From Pseudogemmobacter humi (GTDB lineage Bacteria > Pseudomonadota > Alphaproteobacteria > Rhodobacterales > Rhodobacteraceae): 64,000 nt of DNA. The notes under the pieces were generated by a model. The model worked only from the letters and a program-made list of their open reading frames with translations, did no database searches and had not been told where the DNA came from. The first letter of the stretch is position 1. Every line of letters starts with the position of its first letter. This document shows positions 1,777 to 60,866 of the stretch, one piece after another. The stretch spans positions 62,001 through 126,000 of the forward strand of contig NZ_UXAW01000051.1 of assembly GCF_900609055.1 (NCBI RefSeq), given 5' to 3'. The translations under genes and the position numbers were made by a program.

Positions 1777-2238
1777 TCAGTTCAGGCGCCAGATTTCGAA
1801 ATTCAGCAACGCAGCAAAGGAAACCCAGGCCAGATAGGGAATGAACAGACCCGCCGAAAGCCTGTCCCGCGGCAGCGCCCGCAGAATGAAAGCAAGGATC
1901 GTGGCGAGCAACAGAGAGATCAGGACCAAGGCAAGGCCCGCGCTCTCCAGCCCGAAGAAAGCAGGCGACCAGGCGTAGTTCAGCAGCAGTTGCAGCCCCC
2001 ACAGGGCGCGGAGGCTCCCGGTGCCGGAACGGCTGTCTGTCGTCCGCCCGAATACCCGCCAGCCCACCACCCCGATGATCAGATAGAGGATCGTCCAGAC
2101 CGGGGCGAACACCCAATTTGGCGGGTTGAAAGCGGGTTTGGAAAGGCTCTCATACCATGGGCCGGGGATGTTGAACCAACCGATCACCCAGCCTGCGAGA
2201 ACCACAGGAACGACGAAAAGGGCTGCTCTCAGGAACAT
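1777..2238 (-). CDS. tspO: TspO/MBR family protein
   Basis: A 153-residue tryptophan-rich sensory protein homologue, an integral membrane protein that binds tetrapyrroles and cholesterol-like ligands. In Rhodobacter it modulates photosynthesis gene expression in response to oxygen. Five membrane helices are visible. The family motifs are present: the block PPNWVFAPVWTILY near residues 41-54, and LNYAWSPAFFGL in the third-fourth helix region. The length equals that of characterised TspO proteins (about 155-160). The start at 2238 begins MFLRAALFVV; longer readings upstream have no membrane character and lack the motif spacing. It sits between the DUF883-like gene upstream and the small membrane-peptide gene downstream, each apparently a separate unit because hairpins flank it. 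Confidence 0.92.
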   Translation of the reverse strand: MFLRAALFVVPVVLAGWVIGWFNIPGPWYESLSKPAFNPPNWVFAPVWTILYLIIGVVGWRVFGRTTDSRSGTGSLRALWGLQLLLNYAWSPAFFGLESAGLALVLISLLLATILAFILRALPRDRLSAGLFIPYLAWVSFAALLNFEIWRLN

Positions 2239-2350
2239 GCTGCGATCCTTATGTGGGGGTGAAGGTGCCCTGGTCCGCGGCGAAGCCGAACCGCTGCCAG
2301 GTCCGCCAGACAGGGTCGCGGCCCGCGCGGGAGCAGAGCGGGCCGCAACC

Positions 2351-2381
2351 GTCGGGAAAGGGAGGGAGGTCCTTTCCCGAC
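2351..2381 (-). terminator. Hairpin after the DUF883-like gene
   Basis: An 11-bp perfect stem, GTCGGGAAAGG (2351-2361) and CCTTTCCCGAC (2371-2381), has a 9-nt loop. It begins 12 bp past the stop of the DUF883-like gene. There is no T-run, so termination efficiency is uncertain. Confidence 0.5.
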
Positions 2382-2392
2382 GAAAAGCGCGT

Positions 2393-2710
2393 TCAGCGGC
2401 GACGGTCGCCGGACAGAACGCCACTGAGGAGCATACCGGCGGCAAGGCCGAGAAGGCCGACGGTCGAGAGCACGGTTGCGGTGGTGCCGGGGTTTTCGCG
2501 CATGGCGCCGACCGCGGCACTGGCCTGATCGCGGACCCGGGCCACCGCCTGACCTGCGCGGCCCTTGCCATCTTCGAACATCTCTTCGGCGTCATCCATC
2601 GCATCCGAGGCGCGCGATGCCAGCGATTTGCTGATCTTCGACATTTCCTTTTTCAGATCGGCGATCTGTTTTTCGAGATCGGCGCGGATATCATTTGCGG
2701 CATCGGCCAT
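2393..2710 (-). CDS. DUF883 (ElaB/YqjD-like) stress-associated membrane protein
   Basis: A 105-residue protein of the ElaB/YqjD/DUF883 type. Residues 1-60 are charged and helical (LEKQIADLKKEMSKISKSLA...), and about 80-97 form one hydrophobic helix (VLSTVGLLGLAAGMLLSG), followed by a short basic tail ending DRRR. E. coli YqjD and ElaB are inner-membrane, ribosome-associated proteins made in stationary phase; that role is carried over here only by homology. The start at 2710 is preceded by AAGGAG at seven bases; the GTG one codon upstream is less likely. A GGAAC-type element at 2772-2796 points at this gene and is consistent with stress control. Confidence 0.85.
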   Translation of the reverse strand: MADAANDIRADLEKQIADLKKEMSKISKSLASRASDAMDDAEEMFEDGKGRAGQAVARVRDQASAAVGAMRENPGTTATVLSTVGLLGLAAGMLLSGVLSGDRRR

Positions 2711-2771
2711 CACTGCACTCCTTGATGAAACTACCCGGGCTCGTGAGCCGTCGCTGAGCCCTGGATCAGAA

Positions 2772-2796
2772 AATGCGCTGAGGTCGATCTGGTTCC
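2772..2796 (-). promoter_or_regulatory. Possible EcfG-type stress promoter
   Basis: On the minus strand GGAAC is followed by 16 nt and CATT, one base from the CGTT consensus. Its first eight bases, GGAACCAG, are the same as in the element at 1717-1741. It lies about 60-85 bp upstream of the DUF883-like start. Confidence 0.4.
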
Positions 2797-2890
2797 GGGA
2801 GGTGACGTAGGGTTCTCTTAGGGCCGTCGATGCGACATTTTCATTTGTCCGCGCCGGGGAGCATCACAATGGTCTGGGGCGCCTTGATTG

Positions 2891-3031
2891 GGCTTTGTTG
2901 CACAACAGAAGATTTTGCTCGGAAGCAGATCAATTTATGCGCCGCTTTTCTCTCGCGGCCGACACTGGCCGGTCAATATGGCCTGAACGCGGCCTGAGCA
3001 CGATAGTTTTCTTCTATTGTGCAACAAAGCC
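2891..3031. mobile_element. MITE-like element, 141 bp
   Basis: Two 22-bp terminal inverted repeats, beginning GGCTTTGTTGCACAA and differing at one position, bound a 141-bp segment with no credible gene. The arms are 2891-2912 and 3010-3031. This is the form of a non-autonomous miniature transposable element. GGCTTTGTTGCA-type ends are found on IS5-like elements, so an IS5-family source is likely but unproven. I could not see a target duplication: the flanks are GATTG on the left and TTATG on the right. Confidence 0.7.
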
Positions 3032-3225
3032 TTATGCCATGCTCCATGGCCAGTCTCATTGGCGATGTTTTTACACAAGTCCAATTTATCATTATTTATT
3101 TTTGGCCAATGCAGAAAATAAGGCGACGCCGAAAGCTATGGGTATCCGTCAATCCCGAAGCCATGTCTGCCTGCTGTTACTGCTGTTGAACCAGGTCCGC
3201 TCCGGAGGGGGCGGATGGTTGTTTC
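3032..3225. other. AT-rich spacer without a supported gene
   Basis: This stretch is much poorer in GC than its surroundings, notably 3060-3130. Readable frames look random in composition and lack ribosome sites. It may be a remnant of the insertion that brought the neighbouring MITE. Confidence 0.5.
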
Positions 3226-45282: not shown

Positions 45283-46803
45283 TCAGTTCAGTTCAGGAAC
45301 GGCCTCCGGCTCGAAAAGAAGATTGTGCATCACCACCCGCAGCCCCGGCGGGCCGACGGGCTTGATCAGCACCGGATAGCCCTGGGCCCGGATGCCGGCG
45401 ATCAGTTCGGGCCCGGTGTCGGCGGTGATCACCAGCGCCGGGCAGGGCTTTTCCAGGATGTCGTTCACCTCGTTGACGATTTCGGTGCCCAGATATTCGC
45501 GGTGCAGCCGGTAGTCGGTGACGATGATGTCGGGCGCGCGGTCCAGCGCGGCGAGACTGCGGGGGATGTCGCTCAGATCGACAAGGTTGAGCACCGTGAT
45601 CCCCCAGCGTTCCAAGAGCGCGGCCAGCGCCTCGCGCACATGGGGGTCGTCCTCCAGCAGCAGGCAGGCGAGACCGGCGAACTCGCCGCCGATCTGTTCG
45701 CTGATCTCGGGTTCGCTGATGGTGCTGTGCCAGATATTGCCCACCGGCATCTCGATGGCGAAATCCGAGCCCCGCCCCGGCAGGCTGCGCAACATGATGC
45801 GATGGCCGAGGATGTCGGCCAGCCGGCGCGAGATATTGAGACCCAGGCCCAGGCTGTGGCGGCGCTTGTCCTGATGTTTCGAGATGCGGAAGAATTCCTC
45901 GAAGATCTCTTCGCGGAACTCGGGCGCGATGCCGGGGCCGGTGTCGATGACATGGACCTGCAACTGCCCTCCGGCCTGTTTGCAGCCGATCACCACCCGG
46001 CCCACCTCGGTGTATCGGATCGCGTTGCTGACGAAATTGGACAGGATGCGCTCCAGCAGCACCCGGTCGCTGACCACCGCCGCGGTCGAGGGGATGATGC
46101 GCAGTTCCAGCCCCTTTTCACGGGCCTGGTGGTCGAACTGGATGCGCAGCCGCTCCAGGATGGCCGAGATCTGGAAGGTCTGGATCGAAGGATGGATGCG
46201 GCCTGCATCAAGCTGCCCGATGTTCAGAAGCGCGCCGAGCAGATCCTCCATGATGGCGACCGAGACTTCCATCGCGTGCAGGGCCTGCTGGCGTTCGGCC
46301 TCTTCCCGGGCGCCGATGCAACTGTAGATCAGGATCTTCATCGCGGCGAGCGGCTGGCGCAGGTCGTGGTTCGCGGCGCGCAGAAACCGCGACTTGCTCT
46401 GATCGGCGGCGGTGGCGGCGTCGCGGGCCTTGCGAAGCGCGCGCTCGTTGCGCTGCGCCGTGGTGATGTCGAGGCAAATGGTGGTCCGGCAGCCATCCGG
46501 CGCCTGCCAGCTTTCCAGGCGGTAGATGCTGCCGTCCGAGAAATAGAGCGTGGGCGCATCGGTGGCCTCGCCCGTTTCGGCGGGCCGGGTCTCGATCTGC
46601 ACCAGCAGGCCCGCGCGCTCCACCGCGTCGATGAACCGGTCGCGGGTGATGCCGGTGGGAATACCGGCGGGGAAGCAGCTGAACCGCTCGGCAAATGCCG
46701 GATTCCAGGACAAAAGTTTCAGATCGGCCGACCAGTAGGAGACGGGAAGCCGAAGGTTGTCCAGCGTCGCGGCAGCGTATTGCCCGGCCGCGGCGGCGCT
46801 CAT
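45283..46803 (-). CDS. Soluble hybrid histidine kinase with PAS domain and C-terminal receiver
   Basis: A 506-residue kinase without membrane segments. A PAS domain occupies about residues 10-115 (YWSADLKLLSWNPAF...). The phosphoacceptor His is about residue 145 in RAANHDLRQPLAAM, of the wording seen in the NahK/FmdS-like group. The N-box is NFVSNAIRYT, and G-boxes are DTGPGI and SLGLGLNISRRLA. The receiver begins LLLEDDPHVREAL with the probable Asp near 429 in IIVTDYRL. It overlaps the upstream regulator gene by 4 nt. With the leaderless binding-protein homologue next to it, it may perceive a cytoplasmic amide signal. Confidence 0.9.
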   Translation of the reverse strand: MSAAAAGQYAAATLDNLRLPVSYWSADLKLLSWNPAFAERFSCFPAGIPTGITRDRFIDAVERAGLLVQIETRPAETGEATDAPTLYFSDGSIYRLESWQAPDGCRTTICLDITTAQRNERALRKARDAATAADQSKSRFLRAANHDLRQPLAAMKILIYSCIGAREEAERQQALHAMEVSVAIMEDLLGALLNIGQLDAGRIHPSIQTFQISAILERLRIQFDHQAREKGLELRIIPSTAAVVSDRVLLERILSNFVSNAIRYTEVGRVVIGCKQAGGQLQVHVIDTGPGIAPEFREEIFEEFFRISKHQDKRRHSLGLGLNISRRLADILGHRIMLRSLPGRGSDFAIEMPVGNIWHSTISEPEISEQIGGEFAGLACLLLEDDPHVREALAALLERWGITVLNLVDLSDIPRSLAALDRAPDIIVTDYRLHREYLGTEIVNEVNDILEKPCPALVITADTGPELIAGIRAQGYPVLIKPVGPPGLRVVMHNLLFEPEAVPELN

Positions 46804-47504
46804 GCCCGGTCGCGCATCTGGGCGAGCGCCTCGCCGTTCTCGACCGCATAGCGGATCGCGGCTTCGCGGGTGCGAAGGTCCAGCTTGCGCATGGCATTGC
46901 CCAGGTGGACCCGCACCGTCTGGCGGCTGATCTCCAGTTGCCCGGCGATGTCCTGGATCGAGCAGCCGCTGCCCAGCAGGACAAGGATCTCGCTCTCGCG
47001 CCGGCTGAGACCGGCACGGGCCGCATCGGGTGCGGGCGGGGTCTCGGGCGGGGGCTGTTCGCTCCAGCCGCGGGCGATCAGGTTGCGCGGGAAGGCGACT
47101 TCACCCGCCAGCACCCGTTGCAGCGCGAGCTGAATCTCCTCTGGCCCCGATGATTTCGGGATATAGCCGATCACCCCGTGCTGGATCGCGCGCAGCACGT
47201 AATGCGGATCCTCATGCACCGAGACGATGACGATCGGGATCGACGGGTAGTTGCTGCGGATCAGCCGCAGTCCTTCCATCTCGGTAAAGCCCGGCATCAC
47301 CAGGTCGATCAGCAGCAGCCCCACATCGGGGTTGTCCTGCAACACCGCCAGGGCCTCGTTGAAGCCGCCCGCCTCTTCTATGCGCAGATTGCTGTCCAGC
47401 CCCTGAGCGACCTGCTTCAGCGATTCCCGCACCACCCAATGGTCGTCCGCGATCAGAATCGTCAGCGGCGAGCCGAGGTCAGGGGCGCGATCCATCATGC
47501 TCAT
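46800..47504 (-). CDS. NarL/FixJ-family response regulator
   Basis: A 234-residue regulator. The receiver domain (about residues 15-130) has the acidic pair ADDHW, the phosphorylated Asp near 67 in LLIDLVMPG and Lys in YIPKSSG. The C-terminal LuxR-type domain is GLSRRESEILVLLGSGCSIQDIAGQLEISRQTVRVHLGNAMRKLDL. It is the first gene of the minus-strand trio and divergent from the amide-import operon, which it probably controls through sites in the 400-bp gap. In known Paracoccus DMFase loci the regulator is a single LuxR-type protein, DmfR; here a two-component system takes the place. Confidence 0.92.
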   Translation of the reverse strand: MSMMDRAPDLGSPLTILIADDHWVVRESLKQVAQGLDSNLRIEEAGGFNEALAVLQDNPDVGLLLIDLVMPGFTEMEGLRLIRSNYPSIPIVIVSVHEDPHYVLRAIQHGVIGYIPKSSGPEEIQLALQRVLAGEVAFPRNLIARGWSEQPPPETPPAPDAARAGLSRRESEILVLLGSGCSIQDIAGQLEISRQTVRVHLGNAMRKLDLRTREAAIRYAVENGEALAQMRDRA

Positions 47505-47905: not shown

Positions 47906-49228
47906 ATGAAGAACCTTCCGTTCCGCACCGCCGCCGGCGGGCTGCGGATGACCCGCCGCACCGCGGTGAAACTGTCGCTGGGCGCCGCCGCGACCCATCT
48001 TGCCGCCCCCGCCCTTGCGCAGGTCGGCAGCGACAAGATCCTGATCGGGGTGCCCGCCTCGCTGTCGACGCCTTACGGCGTGGCGGATGATACCGACCAT
48101 GTGAACGGCACCATGCTGGCGGTCGAGGAGATCAACGCCGCGGGCGGCGTGCTCGGGCGCGAGCTTGAGATTTTCGTGGCCGATGTGGACAAGCTGTCGC
48201 CGGAAAGCGCGCGCCAGACCATCGCAGCCTGTATCGACCGCAAGGTCCATGCGATCTCGAACTCGTTCATCTTCGCGCCGATCCCGGCCATGGACGAATC
48301 CGCAAAATACCGCTGCCCCTATGTCCAGGGCAATACGCAGCGCGCGGCGACCGAGGCTTACCGCGAAAATCCCGAGAAATACGCCCATGTCTTCCAGACC
48401 GACCCGTCCGAGGTCAATTACGGCTGGACCTATCCGCTCTGGCTGAAAAAGATGGAGGAAACCGGGGTCTGGAAGCCGAAGAACCGCAAGATCCACATCG
48501 TCGCCGAGCAGGTCGCCTATTGCCAGACCATCCTCAAGGCCGCGCGCGAGGCGATCCCGAACTATGATTTCGAGCTGGCCGAAGTCACCGACATCCAGTT
48601 CCCGGTCAATGACTGGAGCCCGGTGATCCGCCGCCTGAAAGAGGTGGATGCGGCGGCGATCATGATCGACCACTGGGTCGCCTCGGAATATTCCGCTTTC
48701 TGCAAGCAATTCGCCGCCAATCCGGTGCCGGATTCGCTGGTCTATCTGCAATACGGTCCCTCGCAGCCGGAATTTCTGGAACTGGCGGGCCGCGCGGCCG
48801 AGGGCTTCTGCTGGAGCACCGTGCTTGGCATCTATGGCGATGAGAAGGGCCAGGCCTACCGGCAGAAATATCTGGCCCGCTACCCGGAATATGCGGGCAA
48901 TATGGGCCTCGTCTATACCGGAAACGGCTATGATATCGTGCAATATCTGAAGCTTGCCTGGGAGGCGACCGGCAATCCCGAGGATTTCGCCGCCAACTGC
49001 GCCTGGATCCGCGCCAATCCCTATCGCGGCGTCTGCGGCATGATGAACATGAACAACAACCTCCAGGAGGGGCTGCACTACCCCAATAACGGCTTCGACA
49101 ACCAGACCGATGTGCTGGAAGAGGGCATGGCGCAGCTTTTCGTCCAGGTCCAGGACGGCGAGCACAAGATCATCTGGCCGAACGAGGTTGCCGAATCCAG
49201 CCTGCGGCCCGCGCCGTGGTGGGGCTGA
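47906..49228 (+). CDS. Urea/amide-type ABC transporter substrate-binding protein
   Basis: A 440-residue exported binding protein. The signal MTRRTAVKLSLGAAATHLAAPALAQV (written in parts: MTRRTAVKLSLG, then AAPALAQ) is twin-arginine-like and starts about residue 15 after a short lead. The mature part, KILIGVPASLSTPYGVADD...VEEINAAGGVLGRELEIFVADVD, is the branched-chain amino acid/urea/short-chain amide type (UrtA, FmdD). AGGAGAGG precedes ATG 47906. It starts the operon that ends with DMFase, so it probably delivers a small formamide or related amide. A leaderless paralogue lies at 44001-45212. Confidence 0.9.
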   Translation: MKNLPFRTAAGGLRMTRRTAVKLSLGAAATHLAAPALAQVGSDKILIGVPASLSTPYGVADDTDHVNGTMLAVEEINAAGGVLGRELEIFVADVDKLSPESARQTIAACIDRKVHAISNSFIFAPIPAMDESAKYRCPYVQGNTQRAATEAYRENPEKYAHVFQTDPSEVNYGWTYPLWLKKMEETGVWKPKNRKIHIVAEQVAYCQTILKAAREAIPNYDFELAEVTDIQFPVNDWSPVIRRLKEVDAAAIMIDHWVASEYSAFCKQFAANPVPDSLVYLQYGPSQPEFLELAGRAAEGFCWSTVLGIYGDEKGQAYRQKYLARYPEYAGNMGLVYTGNGYDIVQYLKLAWEATGNPEDFAANCAWIRANPYRGVCGMMNMNNNLQEGLHYPNNGFDNQTDVLEEGMAQLFVQVQDGEHKIIWPNEVAESSLRPAPWWG

Positions 49229-49243
49229 GGGGGCATCGGTCAC

Positions 49244-49972
49244 ATGACAGCATGGGATGAACAGATGCTGTTCTCCTGCCGGAATCTCTCGCTCGACCTG
49301 GGCGGGCGGGAGGTTCTGTCGGATATCAGTTTCGACCTGCGCGCCGGTGAGGTTCTGGGCATCATCGGCCCCAATGGTGCCGGCAAGACCAGCCTTCTGG
49401 AAATGCTTTCGGGGCGCTACCAGCCGAAATCCGGCTCGATCCGTTACGAGGGGCGGGATGTTACCAGACTGCCGCTGTTCGAGCGCTCGCGCCTCGGGAT
49501 CGGGCGGACCTATCAGACGCCGCTGGTTCCCGAGCAACTGACGGTCGGAGAGACCTTCAAGGCCGCGCGTCAGGCCTACCGGCCTTATCTGACACGTTTC
49601 GACGCGGAATATGGCGCGAAGCTGGTGAATTTCACCACGCCATATGACACGCCGACCGCCCAGCTCAAGACCTTCGAGCGGCGCAAGCTGCTGTTGTCGT
49701 GCCTGCTGATGCGCGAGCCGAAGGTCCTTCTGATGGACGAACCGGCGGCGGGGCTCATCAATGCCGAGATCGACGAGATCGACCAGATCATGCGGATGCT
49801 CTCGAAAGAGATGAATGTCGCGGTGCTGATCGTCGAGCACCGGATCGAATTGCTCGAATCCATCGCCGACCGGGTGATCGTGATGGATGCGGGCGTGGTG
49901 ATCGCCCAGGGCGAGCTGGCCGAGGTGATCGACAGCCCCGCCGTGCGCGAAGCCTATTTCGAAAACCACTGA
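49244..49972 (+). CDS. Branched-chain/urea-type ABC ATPase (UrtD/LivG-like) with divergent signature motif
   Basis: A 242-residue ATPase. Walker A GPNGAGKTS is at residues 42-50 and Walker B VLLMDEPAAG at 161-170; the H-loop is VLIVEHRI. At the position of the ABC signature, where LivG has LxYGQQRR, the protein reads AQLKTFERRKLLLS (LKTFE at 141-145), so the canonical LSGGQ-like core with its Gly residues is absent. The partner ATPase at 50009-50710 has a normal LSGGERR. Such asymmetric pairs in other ABC proteins have one degenerate ATP site. An alternative start is Met8. Confidence 0.88.
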   Translation: MTAWDEQMLFSCRNLSLDLGGREVLSDISFDLRAGEVLGIIGPNGAGKTSLLEMLSGRYQPKSGSIRYEGRDVTRLPLFERSRLGIGRTYQTPLVPEQLTVGETFKAARQAYRPYLTRFDAEYGAKLVNFTTPYDTPTAQLKTFERRKLLLSCLLMREPKVLLMDEPAAGLINAEIDEIDQIMRMLSKEMNVAVLIVEHRIELLESIADRVIVMDAGVVIAQGELAEVIDSPAVREAYFENH

Positions 49973-50008: not shown

Positions 50009-50710
50009 ATGTCAGAGATACTGAAAGTGGAAGGCCTTTCGGCCGGCTACGGGCCTTTGCGTGTCCTGCACGACCTTGATCTGGTGATCCATGCCGGGGA
50101 AAGGGTGGGCATCGTCGGGCTGAACGGCCATGGCAAGACCACGCTTTTCTACGCCATCGCCGGGCTGACCGGCTGGCAGCGCGGCTCGATCGAGCTGGCG
50201 GGAAAGCAGATCGGCCGCACCCGCAGCCAGGGGCCGGGCCGCTACACGCACCAGATCGTGCGCCAGGGCCTCGCGATCATGCCGCAGGGCGATGAGATCT
50301 TCAACGGGCTGACGGTCGAGGAACATCTCGACAGCGGCGCCTTCACCCCCGAGGCCTGGCGCACCCGCAAGGAACGCAAGGAGCGCGTCCTCGACATCTT
50401 CGAGCCGCTCAGAAAGCTGATGAAGATGCCGGTCGGCCGTCTTTCCGGCGGCGAGCGGCGCATGGTCTCGATCGGGCGGGGGCTGATGACCGATGCAAGG
50501 CTTTATCTGGCGGACGAGCCCTCGCTGGGGCTGGCGCCGAAGATCGGCCTCGCGGTGATGGAGGCGCTGCTGAAGATCGACCTCAAGGGCAGCGCCATGT
50601 TCATCGCCGAGCAGAATGTCGCGCTGCTGGAAGGCAAGGTCGACCGCATCATCGGGATGCACGCCGGCAAGCTGAAGGGCGAGGCCTCGGCGGCCTCCCG
50701 TCTCGGATGA
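50009..50710 (+). CDS. Branched-chain/urea-type ABC ATPase (UrtE/LivF-like)
   Basis: A 233-residue ATPase with Walker A GLNGHGKTT, the Q-loop region LAIMPQGDEIFNGLTVEEHL, signature LSGGERRMVSIGRGLM, Walker B LYLADEPSLGLAPKI and a final MFIAEQN as H-loop region (Gln replaces His, usual in this family). The Asn-His-Gly in Walker A (GLNGHGKT) is slightly unusual. It pairs with the preceding ATPase. The gap to the first permease is 52 bp. Confidence 0.92.
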   Translation: MSEILKVEGLSAGYGPLRVLHDLDLVIHAGERVGIVGLNGHGKTTLFYAIAGLTGWQRGSIELAGKQIGRTRSQGPGRYTHQIVRQGLAIMPQGDEIFNGLTVEEHLDSGAFTPEAWRTRKERKERVLDIFEPLRKLMKMPVGRLSGGERRMVSIGRGLMTDARLYLADEPSLGLAPKIGLAVMEALLKIDLKGSAMFIAEQNVALLEGKVDRIIGMHAGKLKGEASAASRLG

Positions 50711-50762: not shown

Positions 50763-51644
50763 ATGGATGTCTTTTTCGTACTGACCAACGCGATCACCGT
50801 CGCCTGTATCTACGGGCTGATCGCGGTCGCGGTCTCGATCACCTGGTCGAGCCTCGGGCTGATCAACCTGGCTTACGGTTTCGTCTTCACCTTCGCGGGC
50901 TATGGCGCCTGGCTCGTGTCGCAACATGTCGGAGAGCACCCGCTGATCATCGCCGCGGCCGGCATCGCCATGGGGGCGCTTGCGGGTGTGCTGGTCTGCC
51001 TCGTGGTGTTCATCCCGCTGCATGACAAGCCGAATTTCACCACGCGCGGCATGATCGCCACCCTCGCGATCAGCCTGATCGGCAGCCAGAGCTTCCTGAT
51101 GTTCTTCGGCCCGCGCCCGAAATCGCTGCCGGATCTGTTCGGATTCTGGAGCGTGGATCTCTTCGGCGTCACGCTGACCTCGGACAAGATCGGCATCGTG
51201 GTCTGTTCGGCGCTGATGCTGTTTCTGGTGGTGCGCTGGATGAAGGGCAGCCGCCGCGGGCTGGAGATCCGGGCGATGATGATGAACCCCCATGCCGCCT
51301 CGATTGTCGGCATCGGCATCCGCAGCACCGGGATCTATGTGATGGCGGTGACGGGGGCCATGGCGGGGCTGGCCTCGGTTCTCTTGTCGCAGACCTATTA
51401 CATCGCGCCTTTCAACGGGCTGACGCCGCTGATCAAGGGCGTGTCCATCGCGCTTTGCGGCGGGCTCGGCTCGGTCCAGGGCGCGGTGATCGCCGCCATA
51501 TTGCTCGGCCTCGTCGAGGCGCTGACCAATGAATTCCTCGGCGGCCAGTATGTGCTGATGACCCAGTTCCTCTTCATCATCGCCGTGCTGGTCGTCCGGC
51601 CGCGCGGGATCTCGGGGCTTCTCGACAAGGCGCGCGAACAATGA
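50763..51644 (+). CDS. Branched-chain/urea-type ABC permease (LivH/UrtB-like)
   Basis: A 293-residue permease with about eight membrane helices. The start MDVFFVLTNAITVACIYGLIAVAVSITWSSLGLINLAYG has the family's first helix and the conserved LINLAYG turn. The coupling region GLEIRAMMMNPHAASIVGIGIRSTGIYVMAVTGAMAGLA matches LivH. The stop overlaps the next permease by 4 nt. It probably forms the channel with the fusion permease for a small amide. Confidence 0.92.
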   Translation: MDVFFVLTNAITVACIYGLIAVAVSITWSSLGLINLAYGFVFTFAGYGAWLVSQHVGEHPLIIAAAGIAMGALAGVLVCLVVFIPLHDKPNFTTRGMIATLAISLIGSQSFLMFFGPRPKSLPDLFGFWSVDLFGVTLTSDKIGIVVCSALMLFLVVRWMKGSRRGLEIRAMMMNPHAASIVGIGIRSTGIYVMAVTGAMAGLASVLLSQTYYIAPFNGLTPLIKGVSIALCGGLGSVQGAVIAAILLGLVEALTNEFLGGQYVLMTQFLFIIAVLVVRPRGISGLLDKAREQ

Positions 51645-53299
51645 GCAAGAAACACGAAAAATCCGGCTACACCTGGATCAACCCGCTTGCGGCCTGGGGC
51701 ACGGCGGTCGGCAATGCCGCCGCGCCCTCGGTCGAGGTTCCCGATATCCGCGAGGACTGGGACAAGGCGACCGGCTACAAGGTGAAGACCCATAAGGTCG
51801 GGCGGCTGAAGCATTACATCATCTGGCCGAACCATGGCGAAAAGCTCTGGAGCCGCTGGCGCTGGTGGCCGACGCGGCGCAACCTGCTGCATGTCACCGG
51901 CATCTACAACCGCAAGACCGCGATCGCCGAGACGAAGATCCTCGACCGCCGCCCGCTTTACTGGCTGATCTGTCTGGCCTTCCTGGCCATCGCGCCGATG
52001 CTTTTTCCCGACAATATGCAGAATACCCTGCTGACGGCGGGCACCATTTTCGGCATCTTCGCCGCGATCAATGTCTGCTGGACGCTGATCATCGGCACCG
52101 CGAGCATCTTTTCGCTGGCAAGCTATGCGGTGGTGGGGACGGCCGCCTTCCTGACCTCCTGGCTTTCGGTCACCTACGGCGTGCCCTGGTATGTGCTGCC
52201 GGTGATCGGAGCGGTGATCGGGCTGGTCTTCGGCGTCGCCATCGCCTTGCCCGCGCTGCGGCTGGACGGCTTCTATTACGCACTGCTGACGCTTGGCCTG
52301 AATGAGCTGTGCCGGGTCTTTTTCACCACCTCGCGCGAATTCGGCTCGGCCTCGGGCGGGCTTTACGGCGCCGACAGTTTCATCAGCGAATCCTGGGATC
52401 CGATGGTGCAGTCGCATGTCGGCTATTACTCGGCCTTCCTTCTGTTGCTGATGTCGCTGTCGCTGTTCCGGCTGATCAACGGCAAGAGGCTCGGCCGCAT
52501 CCTGCGCATGGCGCCCGAAAAGCGCGAGGCTTTCGCCGCCGCCTGCGGAGTGGACTACAAGCGCGCGCGGATCATGATCTTCCTGATCACCTCGGTCGCG
52601 CTCGGCTTCATCGGCGGGTTCTATGCCGCGCAATATCGCGGCGTGGCCTTCTCGATCTTCAGCTTCGACACCGTTCTGCTGGGGCTTGCGATGCTGGCCA
52701 TTGGCGGGATCGGCAAGGCCGAAGGCGCGGTTCTGGGCACGCTGGTCGTGATTTTCCTCGACAAGGTGCTGCTCGACTGGGGGCCGATGCGCCATTTCAT
52801 GATCGGCGCGCTGATGCTGGCGGCGGTTCTGTTCCTCAACAACGGCTATTTCGGCATCAAGAAGCAGTTCAACGCCTGGCGCGAGAAGAAGCGCGGCGAA
52901 TGGCGCTCGGCCCGGACCGAGAAGGGCGGCGAGGCGCTGCCGGAAGAGGCGACCGAGGTCGATGACAAGGACCAGCTCTATCTGCGCCGCTTCGACAAGA
53001 TCCAGCGCGATTACCTCAAGACGCTGATCACGCCGGAGATCATCGAAGAGCATCGCCGTCAGCCGCTCGGCCAGCACAGCGAGGCGCTGGAGCGCGTGCT
53101 GCTCTATTTCCGCCGCGCCAGGATGGAGGACAAATACGCCCTCCACCGCGCAGGGCCAGAAGGGCCTTACAAGATCATCGCCTTTTCCGGCACGCGCGGC
53201 GTCTCGCCCCGCCTGGTCGATGACCGCGAATTCGCCACCGTCGATGAGGGCTATCACGGCGTGTTCATGCGCCGGGTCCACGACCTGATGGAATCCTGA
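51641..53299 (+). CDS. LivM/UrtC-like ABC permease fused to a DMFase small-subunit domain
   Basis: A 552-residue protein with three parts. Residues 1-105 are a soluble N-terminal extension. Residues about 106-405 are a LivM-type permease (SLASYAVVGTAAFLTSW, LRLDGFYYALLTLGLNELCRV, GGIGKAEGAVLGT). Residues about 443-552 are homologous to the DMFase small subunit encoded directly after it: ITPEIIEEHRRQPLGQHSEAL versus SDALIEEHRLKPEGHHSEPL, KYALHRAGPEGPYKIIAFSGTRGVSP versus QYAVLAGTDGRFRVVRLSGKRRVPP, and FATVDEGYHGVFMRRVHDL versus YATVREARHAAFLNHIKDL. The frame is uninterrupted through a charged linker (about 407-442). LivM proteins normally end after the last helix. The cytoplasmic domain could dock the large DMFase subunit at the transporter, which is inference. 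Confidence 0.9.
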   Translation: MSKKHEKSGYTWINPLAAWGTAVGNAAAPSVEVPDIREDWDKATGYKVKTHKVGRLKHYIIWPNHGEKLWSRWRWWPTRRNLLHVTGIYNRKTAIAETKILDRRPLYWLICLAFLAIAPMLFPDNMQNTLLTAGTIFGIFAAINVCWTLIIGTASIFSLASYAVVGTAAFLTSWLSVTYGVPWYVLPVIGAVIGLVFGVAIALPALRLDGFYYALLTLGLNELCRVFFTTSREFGSASGGLYGADSFISESWDPMVQSHVGYYSAFLLLLMSLSLFRLINGKRLGRILRMAPEKREAFAAACGVDYKRARIMIFLITSVALGFIGGFYAAQYRGVAFSIFSFDTVLLGLAMLAIGGIGKAEGAVLGTLVVIFLDKVLLDWGPMRHFMIGALMLAAVLFLNNGYFGIKKQFNAWREKKRGEWRSARTEKGGEALPEEATEVDDKDQLYLRRFDKIQRDYLKTLITPEIIEEHRRQPLGQHSEALERVLLYFRRARMEDKYALHRAGPEGPYKIIAFSGTRGVSPRLVDDREFATVDEGYHGVFMRRVHDLMES

Positions 53300-53313
53300 G
53301 GAGAGATCCGGAA

Positions 53314-53673
53314 ATGACCGATCCTGACATCATCTCCGAAGATGCCGACATCCATGTGCGGGCGAATTTCGACCGCTTCACCCGCGCCTATCTGCTTTCG
53401 GTGCTGAGCGATGCGCTGATCGAAGAGCATCGCCTGAAGCCCGAGGGCCATCACAGCGAGCCGCTGACCCGGCTGCTGAACTGGTGCCAGACCCGCCCGC
53501 TGGACGAGCAATATGCCGTTCTGGCCGGGACGGACGGGCGTTTCCGCGTGGTCCGGCTGTCGGGGAAGCGGCGCGTCCCGCCCGCGCCGGTCGGCACCGA
53601 AAGCTACGCGACCGTGCGCGAGGCCCGCCATGCGGCGTTTCTCAACCACATCAAAGATCTGACAGGGAAGTAA
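53314..53673 (+). CDS. dmfA1: N,N-dimethylformamidase small (alpha) subunit
   Basis: A 119-residue protein homologous to the small subunit of DMFase. Helical segments surround the conserved ALIEEHRLKPEGHHSEPLTRLL; a beta-rich half has YAVLAGTDGRFRVVRLSGKRRVPPA and the ending YATVREARHAAFLNHIKDLTGK. The known Paracoccus subunit is about 132 residues. It lies 14 bp after the fusion permease, whose last 110 residues are its paralogue, and one base before the large-subunit start. With DmfA2 it forms the enzyme that cleaves N,N-dimethylformamide to dimethylamine and formate; the natural substrate here could be another formamide. Confidence 0.88.
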   Translation: MTDPDIISEDADIHVRANFDRFTRAYLLSVLSDALIEEHRLKPEGHHSEPLTRLLNWCQTRPLDEQYAVLAGTDGRFRVVRLSGKRRVPPAPVGTESYATVREARHAAFLNHIKDLTGK

Positions 53674-53674
53674 C

Positions 53675-55996
53675 ATGGCTCAGCAGAAAATCTTCGGTTA
53701 CGCCAACCGGATCTCGGTGAAACAGGGCGAGGACATCACCTTCTACGTCAACTGCGACGGCGCCTCCGAGGCGCAGGTGCAACTCGTCCGGCTGATCCAT
53801 GGCGACGCGCATGAGGCCGGTCCCGGCTTTCAGGAGGAAGAGGTCGCCCATCCCGCCAACGGCTCCTGGAAGGTGAAGAAGCAGTTCACCCAGCTTGGCA
53901 GCTTCCTTCAGGTCGCCGATCCCGACAACCGGCTTGCGGTTGACGGCGCTTTCACCATGTTCTGCCATATCTGGCCGACCATCCCGAAAAAGGGCGAACG
54001 CCAGACCCTGATGGGCCGCTGGGACACGAAGAACAACACCGGCTTCGCGCTTGCGATCAACCCCGAGGGGCGGCTGGAATTCCAGGTCGGCGATGGCAAG
54101 GAGGTGGATTACGTCACCGCCGAACTGCCGCTGGTGGCCAGGATGTGGTATTTCGTCGGCGTCTCCTTCGATCCGGCATCCGGCCAGGCCACGCTTTACC
54201 AGGAGGGGGTGGCGAACCGCTACAACTCGCTTCTGGGCAAGGTGGTGCCGCATGATTATGCCAGCCATGTCCGCCAGACCTTCCGCTTCCGGCAGAAGAA
54301 TGCGCCCTCGACCCCCTTCCTGATCGCCGGCTCGCGCGACCATCACCTGCTGCGCGGCGATTTCGTCAGCGACCTCTTCGCCGGCAAGATCGACCGTCCG
54401 GCGATCTGCGACCGGGTGCTGAGCCGCGAAGAGCTTGACGCCTGCAAGACCGGCGCAAAGCCCAATGCCGCCGCCATCCTGGCCTGGTGGGACACCACCG
54501 CCGGCTACAGCGACCGCGGCGTCGGCCAGACGGTGTTCGACAGCGGGCCGCACGGGCTCGATGCCGAGGGGGTGAACCATCCCGTGCGCGCCATGACCGG
54601 CTTCAACTGGAACGGGCGCGACGATTGCTTCCGCCTGGCCCCCGAGCAATACGGCGGCATCGAATTCCATCCCGATGCCGTCACCGATTGCCGATGGGAG
54701 GAAACCGCGCGCATCACCGTGCCGCAGGATCTGAAAAGCGGCATCTATGCGATGCGGCTGCGCATTGGCCCGGGCACCGGCATCACCGAGGAATATATCG
54801 TCTTCATCGTGCGCCCGGCGAAACCCTCGGCGAAGCTCTGCTATCTGATCCCGACCGCCAGCTACCTGGCTTACGGCAACGAAAGCCTCAGTTTTGATGC
54901 CCATATCATCCAGCCGATGACCGGCCAGCCTCCGGTCGTGACCGAACTGGATGTCGAGACCTATGAGCATCGCGAATACGGGCTGTCGACCTATGACCAT
55001 TTCGAGGACGGGGCAGGGGTCTGTTTCAGCTCTTATCTGCGTCCGGTGATCAACATGCGGCCGAAATACCGCATGTCGAGCATGAACATCACCTGGCAAT
55101 TCCCGGCGGATCTGTCGATCTCGGCCTGGATCCGCCATCAGGGCTATGATTGCGATTTCATCACCGACGAGGATCTCGACCGCGAGGGGCTCGACGCGAT
55201 CAAACCCTATAACTGCGTGATCACCGGCACCCACCCGGAATATGTGTCCGAGCGGATGCTCGACGCCCAGGAGGATTTCGTCGCGGGCGGCGGGCGGCTG
55301 ATCTACATGGGCGGCAACGGCTATTACTGGGTCGTCGGTTTCTCGCGCGACAATCCCGCCTGTATGGAGGTCAGAAAGCTCGATTCCGGCATGCGGGCCT
55401 GGGCCGCGAAACCGGGCGAGCATTATCTGCAAACCACCGGCGAGAAGAGCGGCCTCTGGCGCAACCGGGGCCGCGCGCCGCAGAAGCTGACCGGGGTGGG
55501 CTTCATCGGCGAAGGCTTCGAGACCGCCTCGCCCTATCGTAAGATGCCCGATGCCTGGCACCGCACCGTGTCCTGGATCACCGAAGGGGTCGAGGGCGAG
55601 ATCATCGGCGACCAGGGCCTCGCCTATGGCGCCGCCGGGGGGATCGAGCTTGACCGCTATGACCTGAGCCTCGGGACGCCGCCGCACACGAAGATCATCG
55701 CCGCGACCGGCGGGCATTCCGACAATTACGTGCTGGTGACCGAGGAACTGCTCTACGCCTATGCCGGGCTGGTCGGTTCGCTCGATTACCGGATCCGGGG
55801 CGATATGACCTATTTCACCGCGCCCAATCACGGGGCGGTGTTCTGCACCGGCGCGATCGGATACGGCCAGGCTTTGCCCGCGAACGGGTTCGACAACAGC
55901 GCGGCGAAGGTGCTGGCCAATGTGGTCGAGGCTTTCATCAAGGACGGACCTTTGCCGGGCACGAAATGGACGCTCGAAGAAAAGCAATGGCGCTAG
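53675..55996 (+). CDS. dmfA2: N,N-dimethylformamidase large (beta) subunit
   Basis: A 773-residue protein, near the 762 of known DMFase large subunits. Residues about 85-260 form a laminin-G/concanavalin-like domain (FCHIWPTIPKKGERQTLMGRWD...). The catalytic part follows: PTASYLAYGNES (Tyr400), STYDHFEDGAGVCFSSY (Tyr440), and ITGTHPEYVSERML (His520, Glu522). In the characterised Paracoccus enzyme a mononuclear iron is held by two Tyr and one Glu near positions 399, 440 and 521, so the ligands appear conserved. No signal peptide, hence cytoplasmic. AGGGAAG precedes the start. It ends the import operon, linking amide uptake to hydrolysis. Confidence 0.92.
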   Translation: MAQQKIFGYANRISVKQGEDITFYVNCDGASEAQVQLVRLIHGDAHEAGPGFQEEEVAHPANGSWKVKKQFTQLGSFLQVADPDNRLAVDGAFTMFCHIWPTIPKKGERQTLMGRWDTKNNTGFALAINPEGRLEFQVGDGKEVDYVTAELPLVARMWYFVGVSFDPASGQATLYQEGVANRYNSLLGKVVPHDYASHVRQTFRFRQKNAPSTPFLIAGSRDHHLLRGDFVSDLFAGKIDRPAICDRVLSREELDACKTGAKPNAAAILAWWDTTAGYSDRGVGQTVFDSGPHGLDAEGVNHPVRAMTGFNWNGRDDCFRLAPEQYGGIEFHPDAVTDCRWEETARITVPQDLKSGIYAMRLRIGPGTGITEEYIVFIVRPAKPSAKLCYLIPTASYLAYGNESLSFDAHIIQPMTGQPPVVTELDVETYEHREYGLSTYDHFEDGAGVCFSSYLRPVINMRPKYRMSSMNITWQFPADLSISAWIRHQGYDCDFITDEDLDREGLDAIKPYNCVITGTHPEYVSERMLDAQEDFVAGGGRLIYMGGNGYYWVVGFSRDNPACMEVRKLDSGMRAWAAKPGEHYLQTTGEKSGLWRNRGRAPQKLTGVGFIGEGFETASPYRKMPDAWHRTVSWITEGVEGEIIGDQGLAYGAAGGIELDRYDLSLGTPPHTKIIAATGGHSDNYVLVTEELLYAYAGLVGSLDYRIRGDMTYFTAPNHGAVFCTGAIGYGQALPANGFDNSAAKVLANVVEAFIKDGPLPGTKWTLEEKQWR

Positions 55997-56495: not shown

Positions 56496-57623
56496 TCAGG
56501 ACAGCAGGCGCGTCAGTGCTGCCACCAGCCTTGCCATGAAGGCCTCATCATAACCTGACGGATTTTCCAGCACGCCGAGATAAACCGCGACCCGGCCGCT
56601 GTCGGGGTTTATCATCAGATATTGCCCGCCATAGCCCGCATGGCCGATCCGCGTGCCGTCGGTCATCAGATGTCCCGCATAGCGCTGGCCGGGCCGCGCC
56701 CGCGACAGGGGCGGACCTGCCGCGCGCCGGCAGGTCCCGATATACCCGGCGCAGCCCAGATTTTCGCCGCCGATGCCCCGCCCCCCGCGCGCGAACAACA
56801 GGCCGAACCGCGCCAGATCGAGCGCCGAAAGCACCCCGCCGCCGGAAAGGGCGGGCAGGCCCTCGGGGCTGAGGCTGATGTGGAAGCCGCCCTCATACCC
56901 CGCAGCGTCACAGATCCCGGCCAGGGCCGCCGGCAGATCGGTGAGCCCTGCCGCGATCAGGGTCAGCACATCGGTATTGGCCGATTTGTAGGCGACATAG
57001 CCCGAGCGGTTGACCGGATCGCCACCCGAAATCCCCGCCACGAATTGCGACAGCGTCATCTCGGGCATGCCATCGGCGGGCAGACGCCAGCCGAGCGCCT
57101 CTTCCTCGCGGTAGCAATCCGCGGCCGGATCGGCGTAGTTTTCCGAGAAGTCGTTGGCGACGTTCATATCCAGCAGGTCGCCGACCAGGGCGTCGCGGTA
57201 ACCGCTGCCGAGGCCGGGCAGCAGGGCTCCGGCGCTGGCCTTCGGGTTCAGCAGCCCCCGGGCGATCAGGCGGCCCGCGATCAGATTCATGTGCATCTTG
57301 CTGACCGACTGGATCGAATGGGGTCGGGTCAGGCTGAAATCCGGGGCGGCTCTGGCGCAAAGCACCCGTCCTTCTTCGGCCACCACCAGGGCCGAGAAAC
57401 CGGGCAGCCGCGACAGCCCCAGATCGTCCGCCACCCGGGCCAGCGCCGGGTCGGGCGCATCCTCCAGCCGCAGGATGCGCCGGGCGCGGATGCTCAGCGT
57501 GCGGCGAAAGATCAGATGGGCGTTGTGAAACCCGCGGCGGCGGTTTTCCGGCCGGTTCCAGCCCTGGCGCAGATCGGGCCCGACGCTGAGATCGGGGTTG
57601 GGCTCGCTGTCAGGCCAGGACAT
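56496..57623 (-). CDS. Beta-lactamase-fold serine hydrolase
   Basis: A 375-residue protein of the class C beta-lactamase/esterase family (serine hydrolase, amide or ester substrates). The SxxK motif is SVSKM near residue 106 in RPHSIQSVSKMHMNLIAGRLIARGLL; the second motif is YKSAN (YxN type: VAYKSANTDVLTLI), and the third is HAGYGG near the end. No signal peptide is evident, so it is probably cytoplasmic. It is the last gene of the minus-strand operon and overlaps the acyl-CoA synthetase by 14 nt, which suggests it hydrolyses an ester or amide of the imported compound. Confidence 0.85.
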   Translation of the reverse strand: MSWPDSEPNPDLSVGPDLRQGWNRPENRRRGFHNAHLIFRRTLSIRARRILRLEDAPDPALARVADDLGLSRLPGFSALVVAEEGRVLCARAAPDFSLTRPHSIQSVSKMHMNLIAGRLIARGLLNPKASAGALLPGLGSGYRDALVGDLLDMNVANDFSENYADPAADCYREEEALGWRLPADGMPEMTLSQFVAGISGGDPVNRSGYVAYKSANTDVLTLIAAGLTDLPAALAGICDAAGYEGGFHISLSPEGLPALSGGGVLSALDLARFGLLFARGGRGIGGENLGCAGYIGTCRRAAGPPLSRARPGQRYAGHLMTDGTRIGHAGYGGQYLMINPDSGRVAVYLGVLENPSGYDEAFMARLVAALTRLLS

Positions 57624-59703
57624 GGATCAGCGCATCCACGATCACCGCCCGGTCGGCGCAGGCGAAAAGCGGGTTGATCTCGATTTCGGCCAGATCCGGG
57701 CGCGACAGGAAAAGGCTTTGCAACCGGCAGATCACCGCGAGCAGCGCCTCCCGGTCGGCCGCCGTTGCGCCCCGGTAGCCCGCGAGCAGCGGCGCGATCC
57801 GCAGCGCGGACAGGGCCGCCCCGATCCGCTCCGGCGTCTCGGGCAGCAACAGGCTTGCGCTGTCTTGCAGGATCTCGACCAGCACGCCCCCGGCCGCCAG
57901 CGTCAGCACCGGCCCGAACTCGGAATCGCGGCGCAGGCCGACCAGCAGCTCGGCAACCGGCTTCGGCGCCATCTCTTCGATCAGGAAACGGTCGGTGACG
58001 GCGGCGGGGTCATAGGCGGCCACCCGCGCAGGCATCGCCTGCGCCGCCGCCAGCACGGCGGCGGAATCACCCAGGTTCAGCGCCACCGCCCCGGCATCGG
58101 ATTTATGCGCGAGCCGCGGCCCCATCATCTTGAGCACCACCGGAAAGGTCAGCCCCGCAGCAGCGGCGGCCAGCCCCGCCCCGTCGCAGAGGCGCGCTGC
58201 GGGAACCGGCAGGCCCGCGGCGGCCAGCAGAGCCTTGCTTTCGGCCTCATCAAGGCCGCGCAGACGGGCCATGGGGCGCGCAGGCGCCAGCGGCGCGGGC
58301 GGCGCCGCGGCCAGATCGGCGCGGCGCTCGGCCCAGAGGGTCGCGTTGCGGATCGCCCCCAGCCCCTCGGCGATGCCGAGAAGCGGCGCGATGCCCTCGG
58401 CCGCCAGCCAGTCGCGGGTGGCGGGGTCGATGTTTTCATGCAGCGTCGCCAGAACCGCTGCCGGCAGGCCACGCGCCTGCGCCGCGCGCAGAAAGGCCCC
58501 GGCGTCGGCGTGGTAGTAACCCGCGCTTTCATCCAGCCCGGGCGCGGGATAGTCCTGCACCAGAACCGCCGCCGCCGCGCCGGTCAGATCCATCGCCTTG
58601 TCGAACACCGGCCCGGTCCTGTCGGCCTGGCCCCAGATCGGCGTCGTGTAATCCAGCGGGTTCGACACCGTGGCGATCGGCGGCAGCAAACCGGCAAGGC
58701 CGGGTTTCAGCGTGTCGGGAACGGCGGGGAACGAGAGGCCGATCCGCTCGGCCCGGTCCGCGAGCATGGTCGCCCCGCCGCCCGAACAGGTGAAGCCCGC
58801 CACCCGGTTCGCCTTCGGCGCGCCCGCGACGACAAGGAACTTCAGCGTCTCGATCAGTTCGGGCGGGGTTTCGACCCGGATCACCCCGGTCCGCGCGAAA
58901 AGCGCGTCGTAAAGATCGTCCGAGCCGGAAAGCGAGCCGGTATGGCTGACCGTCAGCGCCGCGCCGATCGCCGAGGCGCCGGTCTTGAGCGCGACGATGG
59001 GGATCCCGTTCGCAGCGGCGCGCAGGGCGACGGCGTGAAAGCGGGGGATGCTGCGCAGCCCCTCGATATGCAGCCCGACCGCGCGCACCCCGGGCTGGTC
59101 GATCAGGAAATCGGTGAAATCCTCGAGCGACAGCACCGACTGATTGCCGCAAGAGATCATATGCGTCAGCGGCAGGCCGCGCCGCGTCATGGTGATGTCG
59201 GAAGACAGCATCCCCGACTGGGTGACGATGGCGGCGCCGAAGCCCCGGGGGCTGTCGCCGCCATGGGCAAAGGGCCAGAGCGCGGTCTGCGACAGGTAGC
59301 TGATCGCGCCGTAGCAATTCGGGCCGATCAGCGCCAGATCCCCCGCCGCAGCGACCAGCGCGGCCTCAAGCGCCGCGCCTTCCGGCCCGGCCTCGCGGAA
59401 CCCCGCGGTGTAGCAGACGATGCCGCCCGCGCCGGCCCGGCTGAGGGCGGCTGTCACCCCGACCGCCGCCGGGGCCGGCACCGCGAGGAACACCGCATCC
59501 GGCGGCTCGGGCAGATCCCCGACCGAGGCGAAACAGGGATGGCCCGCCATCTCGGACCGCGCCGGATTGACCGGCCATATCGCGCCGCGGAAGCCGCGCC
59601 GCTGCGCCTCGCCGATGGCGGTCAGACAGTCCCGGCCGCCGACAAAGGCGATGTGGCGCGGATTCAGAAGCCGCCCCAGATTGCTGCGTTGCGCCGGTGT
59701 CAT
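57610..59703 (-). CDS. NDP-forming acyl-CoA synthetase (acetyl-CoA synthetase/succinyl-CoA ligase superfamily)
   Basis: A 697-residue fused alpha-beta synthetase. The N-terminal CoA-binding domain reads LLNPRHIAFVGGRDC and PVNPARSEMAGHPCF; the phospho-His region is VTQSGMLSSDITM and the second ligase part has VALKTGASAIGAALTVSHTGSLSG. The C-terminal ATP-grasp half begins near residue 475 (LDEAESKALLAAAGLPVPAARLCDG, VVLKMMGPRLAHKSDAGAVALNL). Such enzymes activate acids such as pimelate, carnitine-type or aryl acids. Start and upstream acyl-CoA dehydrogenase stop overlap by 4 nt. It probably activates the acid that the next enzyme dehydrogenates. Confidence 0.9.
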   Translation of the reverse strand: MTPAQRSNLGRLLNPRHIAFVGGRDCLTAIGEAQRRGFRGAIWPVNPARSEMAGHPCFASVGDLPEPPDAVFLAVPAPAAVGVTAALSRAGAGGIVCYTAGFREAGPEGAALEAALVAAAGDLALIGPNCYGAISYLSQTALWPFAHGGDSPRGFGAAIVTQSGMLSSDITMTRRGLPLTHMISCGNQSVLSLEDFTDFLIDQPGVRAVGLHIEGLRSIPRFHAVALRAAANGIPIVALKTGASAIGAALTVSHTGSLSGSDDLYDALFARTGVIRVETPPELIETLKFLVVAGAPKANRVAGFTCSGGGATMLADRAERIGLSFPAVPDTLKPGLAGLLPPIATVSNPLDYTTPIWGQADRTGPVFDKAMDLTGAAAAVLVQDYPAPGLDESAGYYHADAGAFLRAAQARGLPAAVLATLHENIDPATRDWLAAEGIAPLLGIAEGLGAIRNATLWAERRADLAAAPPAPLAPARPMARLRGLDEAESKALLAAAGLPVPAARLCDGAGLAAAAAGLTFPVVLKMMGPRLAHKSDAGAVALNLGDSAAVLAAAQAMPARVAAYDPAAVTDRFLIEEMAPKPVAELLVGLRRDSEFGPVLTLAAGGVLVEILQDSASLLLPETPERIGAALSALRIAPLLAGYRGATAADREALLAVICRLQSLFLSRPDLAEIEINPLFACADRAVIVDALIHVLA

Positions 59704-60866
59704 GCCCCGAGCGGCCTCAGGATCGCGCGGGTGATGATGTGGCGCTGGATTTCCGAGGTGCCGTCCCAGATCCGTTCCAGCCGCGCATCGCGCCACAGAC
59801 GCTGCACCGGCAGTTCCTCCATCAGCCCCATGCCGCCGTAGATCTGCACGCAATCGTCGGCGACGCGGTTCACCATTTCCGAGCAGTAGAGCTTGACCAT
59901 CGACACATCGGCATCCGTCAGCACCCCTGCCTCGGCCCGCGCCACCGCATCGGCGACCAGAAGATCCCCGGCCCGCAGGCCGACCGCCATATCCGCCAGT
60001 TTGAAGCCGGTCGCCTGGAACTGGCCGACCGGCTGGCCGAACTGTTTGCGGCTGGCGGCCCAGTCGGTGGCCAGCCCAAGAAGCCGCTCGGCCTTGCCGC
60101 AGCAACTGGCCGCCACCCAGACCCGGCCCATCGTCAGCCACTGGCCGGCCAGTTCGAACCCGCGTCCTTCTTCGCCCAGGATCTGCCCGGGCCCGAGACG
60201 GACATCCGAGAAATGCAGCTGGAAGGTCTTGTAGCCCCGGTAGCTGACCGAGCGGTTGCCCTCGCGCAGCTCGAAGCCGGGCGTTCCGGCATCGACCAGA
60301 AAGGCGGTGACGCGCTTGCGCGGGCCGCGCCGGGTCTCGTCCACGCCGGTCACGGCGAAGACGATGGCGAAATCGGCCATGCAGGGCCCCGAGATGAAAT
60401 GTTTCGAGCCGTTCAGGATCCAGTCCGCGCCGTCGCGCCGCGCGTTCGACTTCATCCCCATGGCGTCCGATCCGGCCTCGGGTTCGGTCAAAGCGAACAG
60501 TTCGCGCTTGTCGCCGCGCACGCAGGGCAGGAGATAGCGTTCGATCTGATCGCCCTCGCAGGCCAGCAGCAGCTCGGTCGGGCGCGCGATCCAGGAATGC
60601 AGCGCATGGCTGGTCTTGCCGTATTCGCGCTCGATCAGGCTCATCGCCTTCATCGAAAGCCCGCCGCCGCCCACCCGCTCGGGCAGGTTCGCAGCATAGA
60701 GCCCGATCTCTTTGGCGCGCGCCTCGATCCGGCGGCCGGTCTCTTCGGGAACGAAGCCCTGGCGGTCCACCAGGTCTTCATGCGGGTAGACTTCCTCGTT
60801 CAGGAAGCTGCGGACGGTCTGCAACAGCAGGCCGGTCTCGTCGTCGGGATCGAAATGGGCGGTCAT
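59700..60866 (-). CDS. Acyl-CoA dehydrogenase
   Basis: A 388-residue FAD enzyme of the acyl-CoA dehydrogenase family. FALTEPEAGSDAMGMKSNARRDGADWILNGSKHFISG (the FAD-binding block, given in parts: FALTEPEAGSDA; WILNGSKHFISG), SRKQFGQPVGQFQATGFKLADM and QIYGGMGLMEELPVQRLWRDARLERIWDGTSEIQ (IYGGMG; IWDGTSEIQ) are all canonical. The catalytic Glu of most members is the one in RxxIxEGTSEI-type context; here the wording is RIWDGTSEIQRH, with Asp in place of that Glu, and the base may be elsewhere as in glutaryl- or isovaleryl-type relatives. Overlaps of 4 nt join it to both neighbours. Confidence 0.93.
   Translation of the reverse strand: MTAHFDPDDETGLLLQTVRSFLNEEVYPHEDLVDRQGFVPEETGRRIEARAKEIGLYAANLPERVGGGGLSMKAMSLIEREYGKTSHALHSWIARPTELLLACEGDQIERYLLPCVRGDKRELFALTEPEAGSDAMGMKSNARRDGADWILNGSKHFISGPCMADFAIVFAVTGVDETRRGPRKRVTAFLVDAGTPGFELREGNRSVSYRGYKTFQLHFSDVRLGPGQILGEEGRGFELAGQWLTMGRVWVAASCCGKAERLLGLATDWAASRKQFGQPVGQFQATGFKLADMAVGLRAGDLLVADAVARAEAGVLTDADVSMVKLYCSEMVNRVADDCVQIYGGMGLMEELPVQRLWRDARLERIWDGTSEIQRHIITRAILRPLGA

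Follow-up and report, generated by a model that had tools for sequence, protein, structure and literature searches.

A Liv-type ABC permease fused in frame to a DMFase alpha-subunit homologue: a candidate importer that completes its own amidohydrolase

The window analysed here is a stretch of 64,000 nucleotides from Pseudogemmobacter humi. One operon on its forward strand holds the set of genes of a Liv/HAAT importer, i.e. one substrate-binding protein, two ATPases and two BPD_transp_2 permeases. The periplasmic substrate-binding protein (Peripla_BP_6) is at positions 47906–49228, and is followed by a LivG/UrtD-like ABC ATPase (49244–49972), a LivF/UrtE-like ABC ATPase (50009–50710) and an unfused LivH/UrtB-like permease partner (50763–51644). 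The second permease, of the LivM type, has a 552 amino acid chain length (51641–53299, stop codon at 53297–53299), and starts with an ATG in a 4-nt overlap with the end of LivH. The free DmfA1, a second and divergent alpha subunit of 119 aa (53314–53673), begins 14 nt after the permease stop, and DmfA2, the large (beta) subunit, is at 53675–55996. On the minus strand, a divergent response regulator of the ErdR/NarL type (46800–47504) adjoins a hybrid histidine kinase of the NahK/ErcS type (45283–46803). This response regulator is kept in five related loci (L042–L045 and L077) and is the probable regulator of the importer operon. Genes for an ADP-forming acyl-CoA ligase and an acyl-CoA dehydrogenase are also present near the operon (57610–60866, minus strand), and are apparently not conserved beside the relatives.

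The gene content is that of Liv/Urt-type (HAAT) importers, and among NCBIfam models those of Liv and Urt come closest to the permeases. The scores however are far under the curated cut-offs, both for the UrtC equivalog (TIGR03408, 42.5 bits vs. 296.2) and for the LivM leucine permease (PRK11301, 48.2 bits vs. 366). As far as found, no described member of this importer class has an enzyme subunit on LivM.

The open reading frame at 51641–53299 is a complete LivM-type permease and a C-terminal homologue of the small (alpha) subunit of N,N-dimethylformamidase (DMFase) in one frame. An in-frame fusion to an alpha paralogue at these coordinates had been proposed from the letters of the window, and both the fusion and the coordinates proved correct. 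The membrane part (residues 104–398, positions 51950–52834) has a BtuC/LivM-like fold, as indicated by the Pfam BPD_transp_2 domain at residues 131–396, the helices of an AlphaFold2 (AF2) model and a VIA-align match to BtuC-like permeases (Z = 13). A cytoplasmic linker (residues 399–439, positions 52835–52957) consists of a basic helix followed by a conserved motif. The alpha-subunit domain occupies residues 440–552 (positions 52958–53296) and displays four helices and two strands. No Pfam model covers the DMFase alpha subunit.

When the whole genome was searched in six frames, residues ~438–552 of the permease matched DmfA1 along its length, with 36% identity and E-value = 2.2e-18; the sequence-only reading had already noticed the alignment. 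Such an E-value excludes a chance match. The same search detected two alpha sequences only, the fused domain and DmfA1, and the genome has one beta. With phmmer, the fused domain matches chain B of PDB entry 6LVB (E-value = 2.4e-7) slightly better than does the free DmfA1 (E-value = 2.2e-5).

The linker carries the motif RTEKGGE-x-(L/M)-PEEA-T-E at residues 425–439. Residues 426–439 are the most conserved stretch of the protein, with a mean pairwise identity of 0.80 vs. 0.62 in the alpha domain and 0.59 in the membrane part; the same residues have a low AF2 confidence and are probably disordered. In parDMFase, beta domain II is contacted by N-terminal residues of alpha; the motif takes the place of these residues in the fused protein and may do the same job.

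The AF2 model of the fused permease was made with 37 relatives in the alignment and no templates. Its mean pLDDT is 76 overall and mostly 77–89 in the alpha domain. The four modelled helices and two strands of the domain, with long helices at both ends, match the description of the parDMFase alpha subunit. The best Foldseek matches in the PDB are 6lvb_B and 6lvv_B (probability 1.00, TM on target 0.78–0.79, rmsd 1.5–1.6 Å), and VIA-align superimposes residues 436–552 of the model on residues 12–130 of 6LVB_B with Z = 14.1. The fused domain is thus predicted to have the DmfA1 fold, as a fusion of alpha paralogues would require. An AF2 model of alpha and beta joined by read-through of the stop codon in locus L057 was poor (pLDDT 61).

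The LivM C-terminus and the fused alpha are taken as cytoplasmic by analogy with a Neorhizobium open reading frame (L129), in which PF02653 (BPD_transp_2) is followed by PF00005 (ABC_tran) in a LivM-LivG fusion. The loop charges of the permease agree with this, since they fit a positive-inside pattern with a cytoplasmic C-terminus. The side of the membrane first suggested for the domain is therefore upheld. LivM-LivG fusions resemble the window permease in having a cytoplasmic C-terminal domain on LivM in a single open reading frame; there, however, the transporter's own ATPase takes the place of the catabolic enzyme subunit.

DmfA2 contains PF13385 (Laminin_G_3, LamG/pentraxin-like) and PF20254 (DMFA2_C, 288 bits vs. 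a cut-off of 27), and it matches 6LVB_A with E-value = 2e-175. The Fe ligands of parDMFase, Y399, Y440 and E521, and the catalytic H519 (numbering from PMC7686228) are present in DmfA2 in the motifs SYLAY, LSTYD and HPEY. Iron ligands and catalytic His are also kept in the betas of all relatives in the alignment. Both subunits are thus homologous to those of the Paracoccus DMFase (PDB 6LVB, PMC7686228), with the beta architecture and Fe(III) ligands kept and the alpha fold matching at 1.5 Å. LuxR-type regulators lie beside many operons of both kinds. The classical dmfA1 however is a free gene without a transporter, whereas the window alpha is part of an ABC permease in an importer operon.

The window beta is ~41% identical to that of P. 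aminophilus, thus the substrate may differ. N-acetyl-beta-phenylalanine acylase (8huy) is another member of the DMFase family, and P. aminophilus has a second dmfA locus that is unlinked to DMF use (PMC4543880). The imported substrate is probably an amide. DMF itself is unlikely, because a compound that needs an importer presumably does not enter the cell by simple diffusion. As a clue to the substrate, the conserved neighbours of the operon offered regulators alone as recurrent genes. A LuxR-type regulator adjoins 26 fused operons, mostly downstream (e.g. L084, 8544–9716), and BLAST detected no similarity between these regulators and P. aminophilus DmfR.

The species genomes of GTDB r220 were scanned with the alpha domain plus the linker. 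The scan yielded 57 further loci with the same single open reading frame, in Alpha-, Beta- and Gammaproteobacteria and in about 55 sampled species. A frameshift or assembly artefact can thus be ruled out. Within the family of the window organism the fused domain is found in 7 of 395 genomes, including the window genome, each from a different genus. The domain is in the LivM frame in all 57 loci, and the order SBP-ATPase-ATPase-LivH is present upstream wherever the contig reaches. The beta gene is downstream of the fused permease in 55 of the 55 loci whose contigs extend that far. In 52 of these 55 it starts 1–47 nt past the permease stop, often 1–5 nt, which leaves no room for a free alpha. 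A free alpha between permease and beta is present only in L042, L043, L044, the window and Ensifer adhaerens M8. Aminobacter and Agrobacterium plasmids have the fused-only form, which is also that of Tabrizicola oligotrophica.

Alpha sequences were also counted in 20 whole genomes with a profile of the fused domain, which could miss strongly diverged alphas. In many of these genomes the fused domain is the sole alpha-like sequence detected, and seven (G391, G213, G777, G780, G784, G785 and G788) have exactly one alpha, the fused one, and one beta (PF20254). Three genomes (G474, G680 and G757) have 4–6 alpha-like sequences each, an expansion of DMFase-like enzymes.

Other candidate fusions were rejected. 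The match in Haladaptatus halobius (H28) runs on into an unrelated downstream gene. The long open reading frame of G680 (L101) is a high G+C artefact and the true alpha is free, and that of G652 (L110) overlaps a neighbouring chaperonin-like frame. An ‘inner-membrane translocator’ of Halalkalicoccus is a free alpha of 180 aa, extended at the N-terminus, and is misnamed, probably owing to the fused permeases. The long extension of this archaeal alpha suggests that additions at the alpha N-terminus are tolerated.

Several loci show variant arrangements. Rhodobacter sp. SGA-6-6 has two different fused importer-enzyme operons in one genome (L042 and L063), only one of which includes the extra free alpha. 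On plasmid pMDW2 of Aminobacter sp. MDW-2 (L119, 15001–23709), a methomyl degrader (PMC8292978), two beta genes lie behind a single fused permease, with propionyl-CoA synthetase and haloacid dehalogenase genes after them; a single tethered alpha may serve both catalytic subunits. In L131 (G1098) an outer-membrane-porin-like gene (1947–3098; Pfam Porin_O_P, below cut-off) lies between the fused permease and beta, which suggests that uptake through both membranes is encoded together. The operon of L044 is in a record titled ‘Oceanobacillus sp. HTM 045’ (Bacillota), and the same contig (C509) is found in a genome of the window's own family (G004). An error or mix-up in the record name is probable.

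The relationship of fused and free alphas was analysed with a tree of 71 sequences, whose long branches restrict how exactly sequences can be placed. In it the five free alphas of the window clade group together (support 99/99) on a long stem, and this group sits with the fused domains (95/96), apart from the classical DMFase alphas. When the window is compared with L042 and L043, respectively, dN/dS is 0.056 and 0.054 in the fused domain, as against 0.32 and 0.23 in the free alpha; the values of beta are 0.085 and 0.071, and that of the permease is 0.11. The free alpha thus evolves 4–6 times faster than the fused domain. In addition, K498, R545, K/R443 and mostly G520 are common to the fused domains and other alphas and are lost in the free copies. 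Because of the tree placement, the dN/dS values and the lost residues, the fused domain is the canonical constrained alpha, and the free DmfA1 of the window clade is a derived, fast-evolving copy. The sequence-only reading had explained the arrangement by a tandem duplication and a later fusion, which would make the fused copy the deviating paralogue. That order is not borne out, since the fused form is widespread and constrained and the free DmfA1 is confined to a small clade nested among fused sequences.

The free alphas of Caballeronia (L122) and G680 (L101) also nest among the fused ones, which suggests secondary separation. In G327 (L039, 1254–10368, minus strand) a free alpha and beta are located directly before an unfused Liv-type ABC operon. 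The same functional gene set is side by side there, but the alpha is a free gene, LivM ends normally, and the identity is about 30%. This arrangement is a plausible pre-fusion state.

The fused domain is very probably a beta-binding subunit: it is the only alpha beside beta in most relatives and the sole one detected in seven genomes, in keeping with the capacity to bind the large subunit that had been suggested for it. A correlation between the divergence of fused alpha and beta (r = 0.93) was considered as evidence of contact and was rejected, as it is no better than that of other operon gene pairs.

The best reading of the fusion is that the importer anchors and completes its own cytoplasmic DMFase-type amidohydrolase at its exit, because purified DMFase beta has no activity and a lower stability in the absence of alpha (Arya 2020, PMC7686228). 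On balance this reading is favoured, with a fair degree of confidence. The Liv-type importer would take up an amide, with alpha permanently attached to the cytoplasmic C-terminus of LivM. Beta, made separately from the next gene, would dock on the permease-borne alpha, and docking would complete an active enzyme whose activity depends on the fused alpha. The amide would then be hydrolysed on entry, where the importer releases its cargo. The benefit may be local capture of the substrate, with no enzyme activity in the absence of the importer. A stricter form of this reading, to which slightly less than an even chance is given, is an obligate complex in which beta is active only on the permease-borne alpha and hydrolysis takes place only at the transporter exit; the substrate may then pass directly to the active site.

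Several observations count against tethering. The enzyme apparently manages without a tether where free alphas (L122 and L101) are nested among fused ones, a porin-like gene parts the fusion from beta in L131, and the window genome itself has a free alpha. One LivM per importer also fits awkwardly with an alpha2beta2 enzyme, in which the alpha N-terminal helix wedges between both betas (PMC7686228). Because one LivM is expected per importer and DMFase is alpha2beta2, it may be speculated that in the window clade the free DmfA1 fills a second alpha site or makes a soluble enzyme pool.

The fused alpha could instead be mainly a sensor that reads how far beta is occupied or how much product is present and slows or opens the importer accordingly (gating or trans-inhibition), like the regulatory domains on other ABC importers. 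The cytoplasmic site near the ATPases and the highly conserved linker motif would suit this role. So would a response of alpha to the active site, as mutants of that site are said to have a disordered beta interface (PMC7686228). Regulatory domains of ABC importers however are usually on the ATPases, and in single-alpha genomes the domain must also act as the enzyme alpha, so that pure sensing is insufficient. Overall a primary role in sensing seems unlikely.

A little less likely still is that the fusion serves stoichiometry only, by giving one alpha per importer and beta, and that beta binds with no advantage from the location. The operon is tight, with beta starting 1–5 nt past the stop in many loci, and this would be enough for co-expression by itself. 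An adjacent free gene would do this equally, yet the fusion and the linker motif are kept in three proteobacterial classes.

It is highly improbable that the domain is cleaved after translation at the conserved and probably flexible linker to give a soluble alpha and a cytosolic enzyme; residues 426–439 are conserved in spite of their low model confidence, but there is no known protease or cleavage site, a separate alpha gene would give the same result at less cost, and the free-alpha clade still keeps the fusion under purifying selection. Equally improbable is the view, implied by the direction first proposed, that the fused domain is decayed or repurposed and the free DmfA1 is the real subunit here; the window and a few relatives do have a free alpha, but this copy is fast-evolving, is missing from 52 of 55 loci and is without K498, R545 and K/R443.

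Importer completion of the amidohydrolase, the preferred reading, has a partial parallel. As cited in PMC6458275, SulP bicarbonate transporters can be joined with carbonic anhydrase (Felce and Saier 2004), likewise a transporter fused to an enzyme that acts on its substrate. There the whole enzyme is on a secondary carrier. In the window fusion the required non-catalytic subunit is on an ABC permease, so that the catalytic subunit would be recruited. Transporter-enzyme fusions are thus already known, and what appears to be new is an ABC permease to which a separate enzyme contributes just its required non-catalytic subunit, an arrangement of which no description was found in the literature searched (few subscription journals were covered). 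In that literature no paper combined ‘dimethylformamidase’ with ‘ABC transporter’, and the one paper with both DMFase and a permease, on P. aminophilus, describes no such fusion.

Transporter-enzyme complexes are often proposed and seldom genetically fixed; here the link is covalent in an ABC importer, and the fused part is the very subunit without which the known enzyme is inactive. Capture of a substrate at the membrane would be directly testable by moving this single domain. The fusion also explains amidohydrolases that are annotated as if they lacked a subunit: the alpha is hidden in a gene named ‘branched-chain amino acid permease’, where no Pfam model would reveal it.
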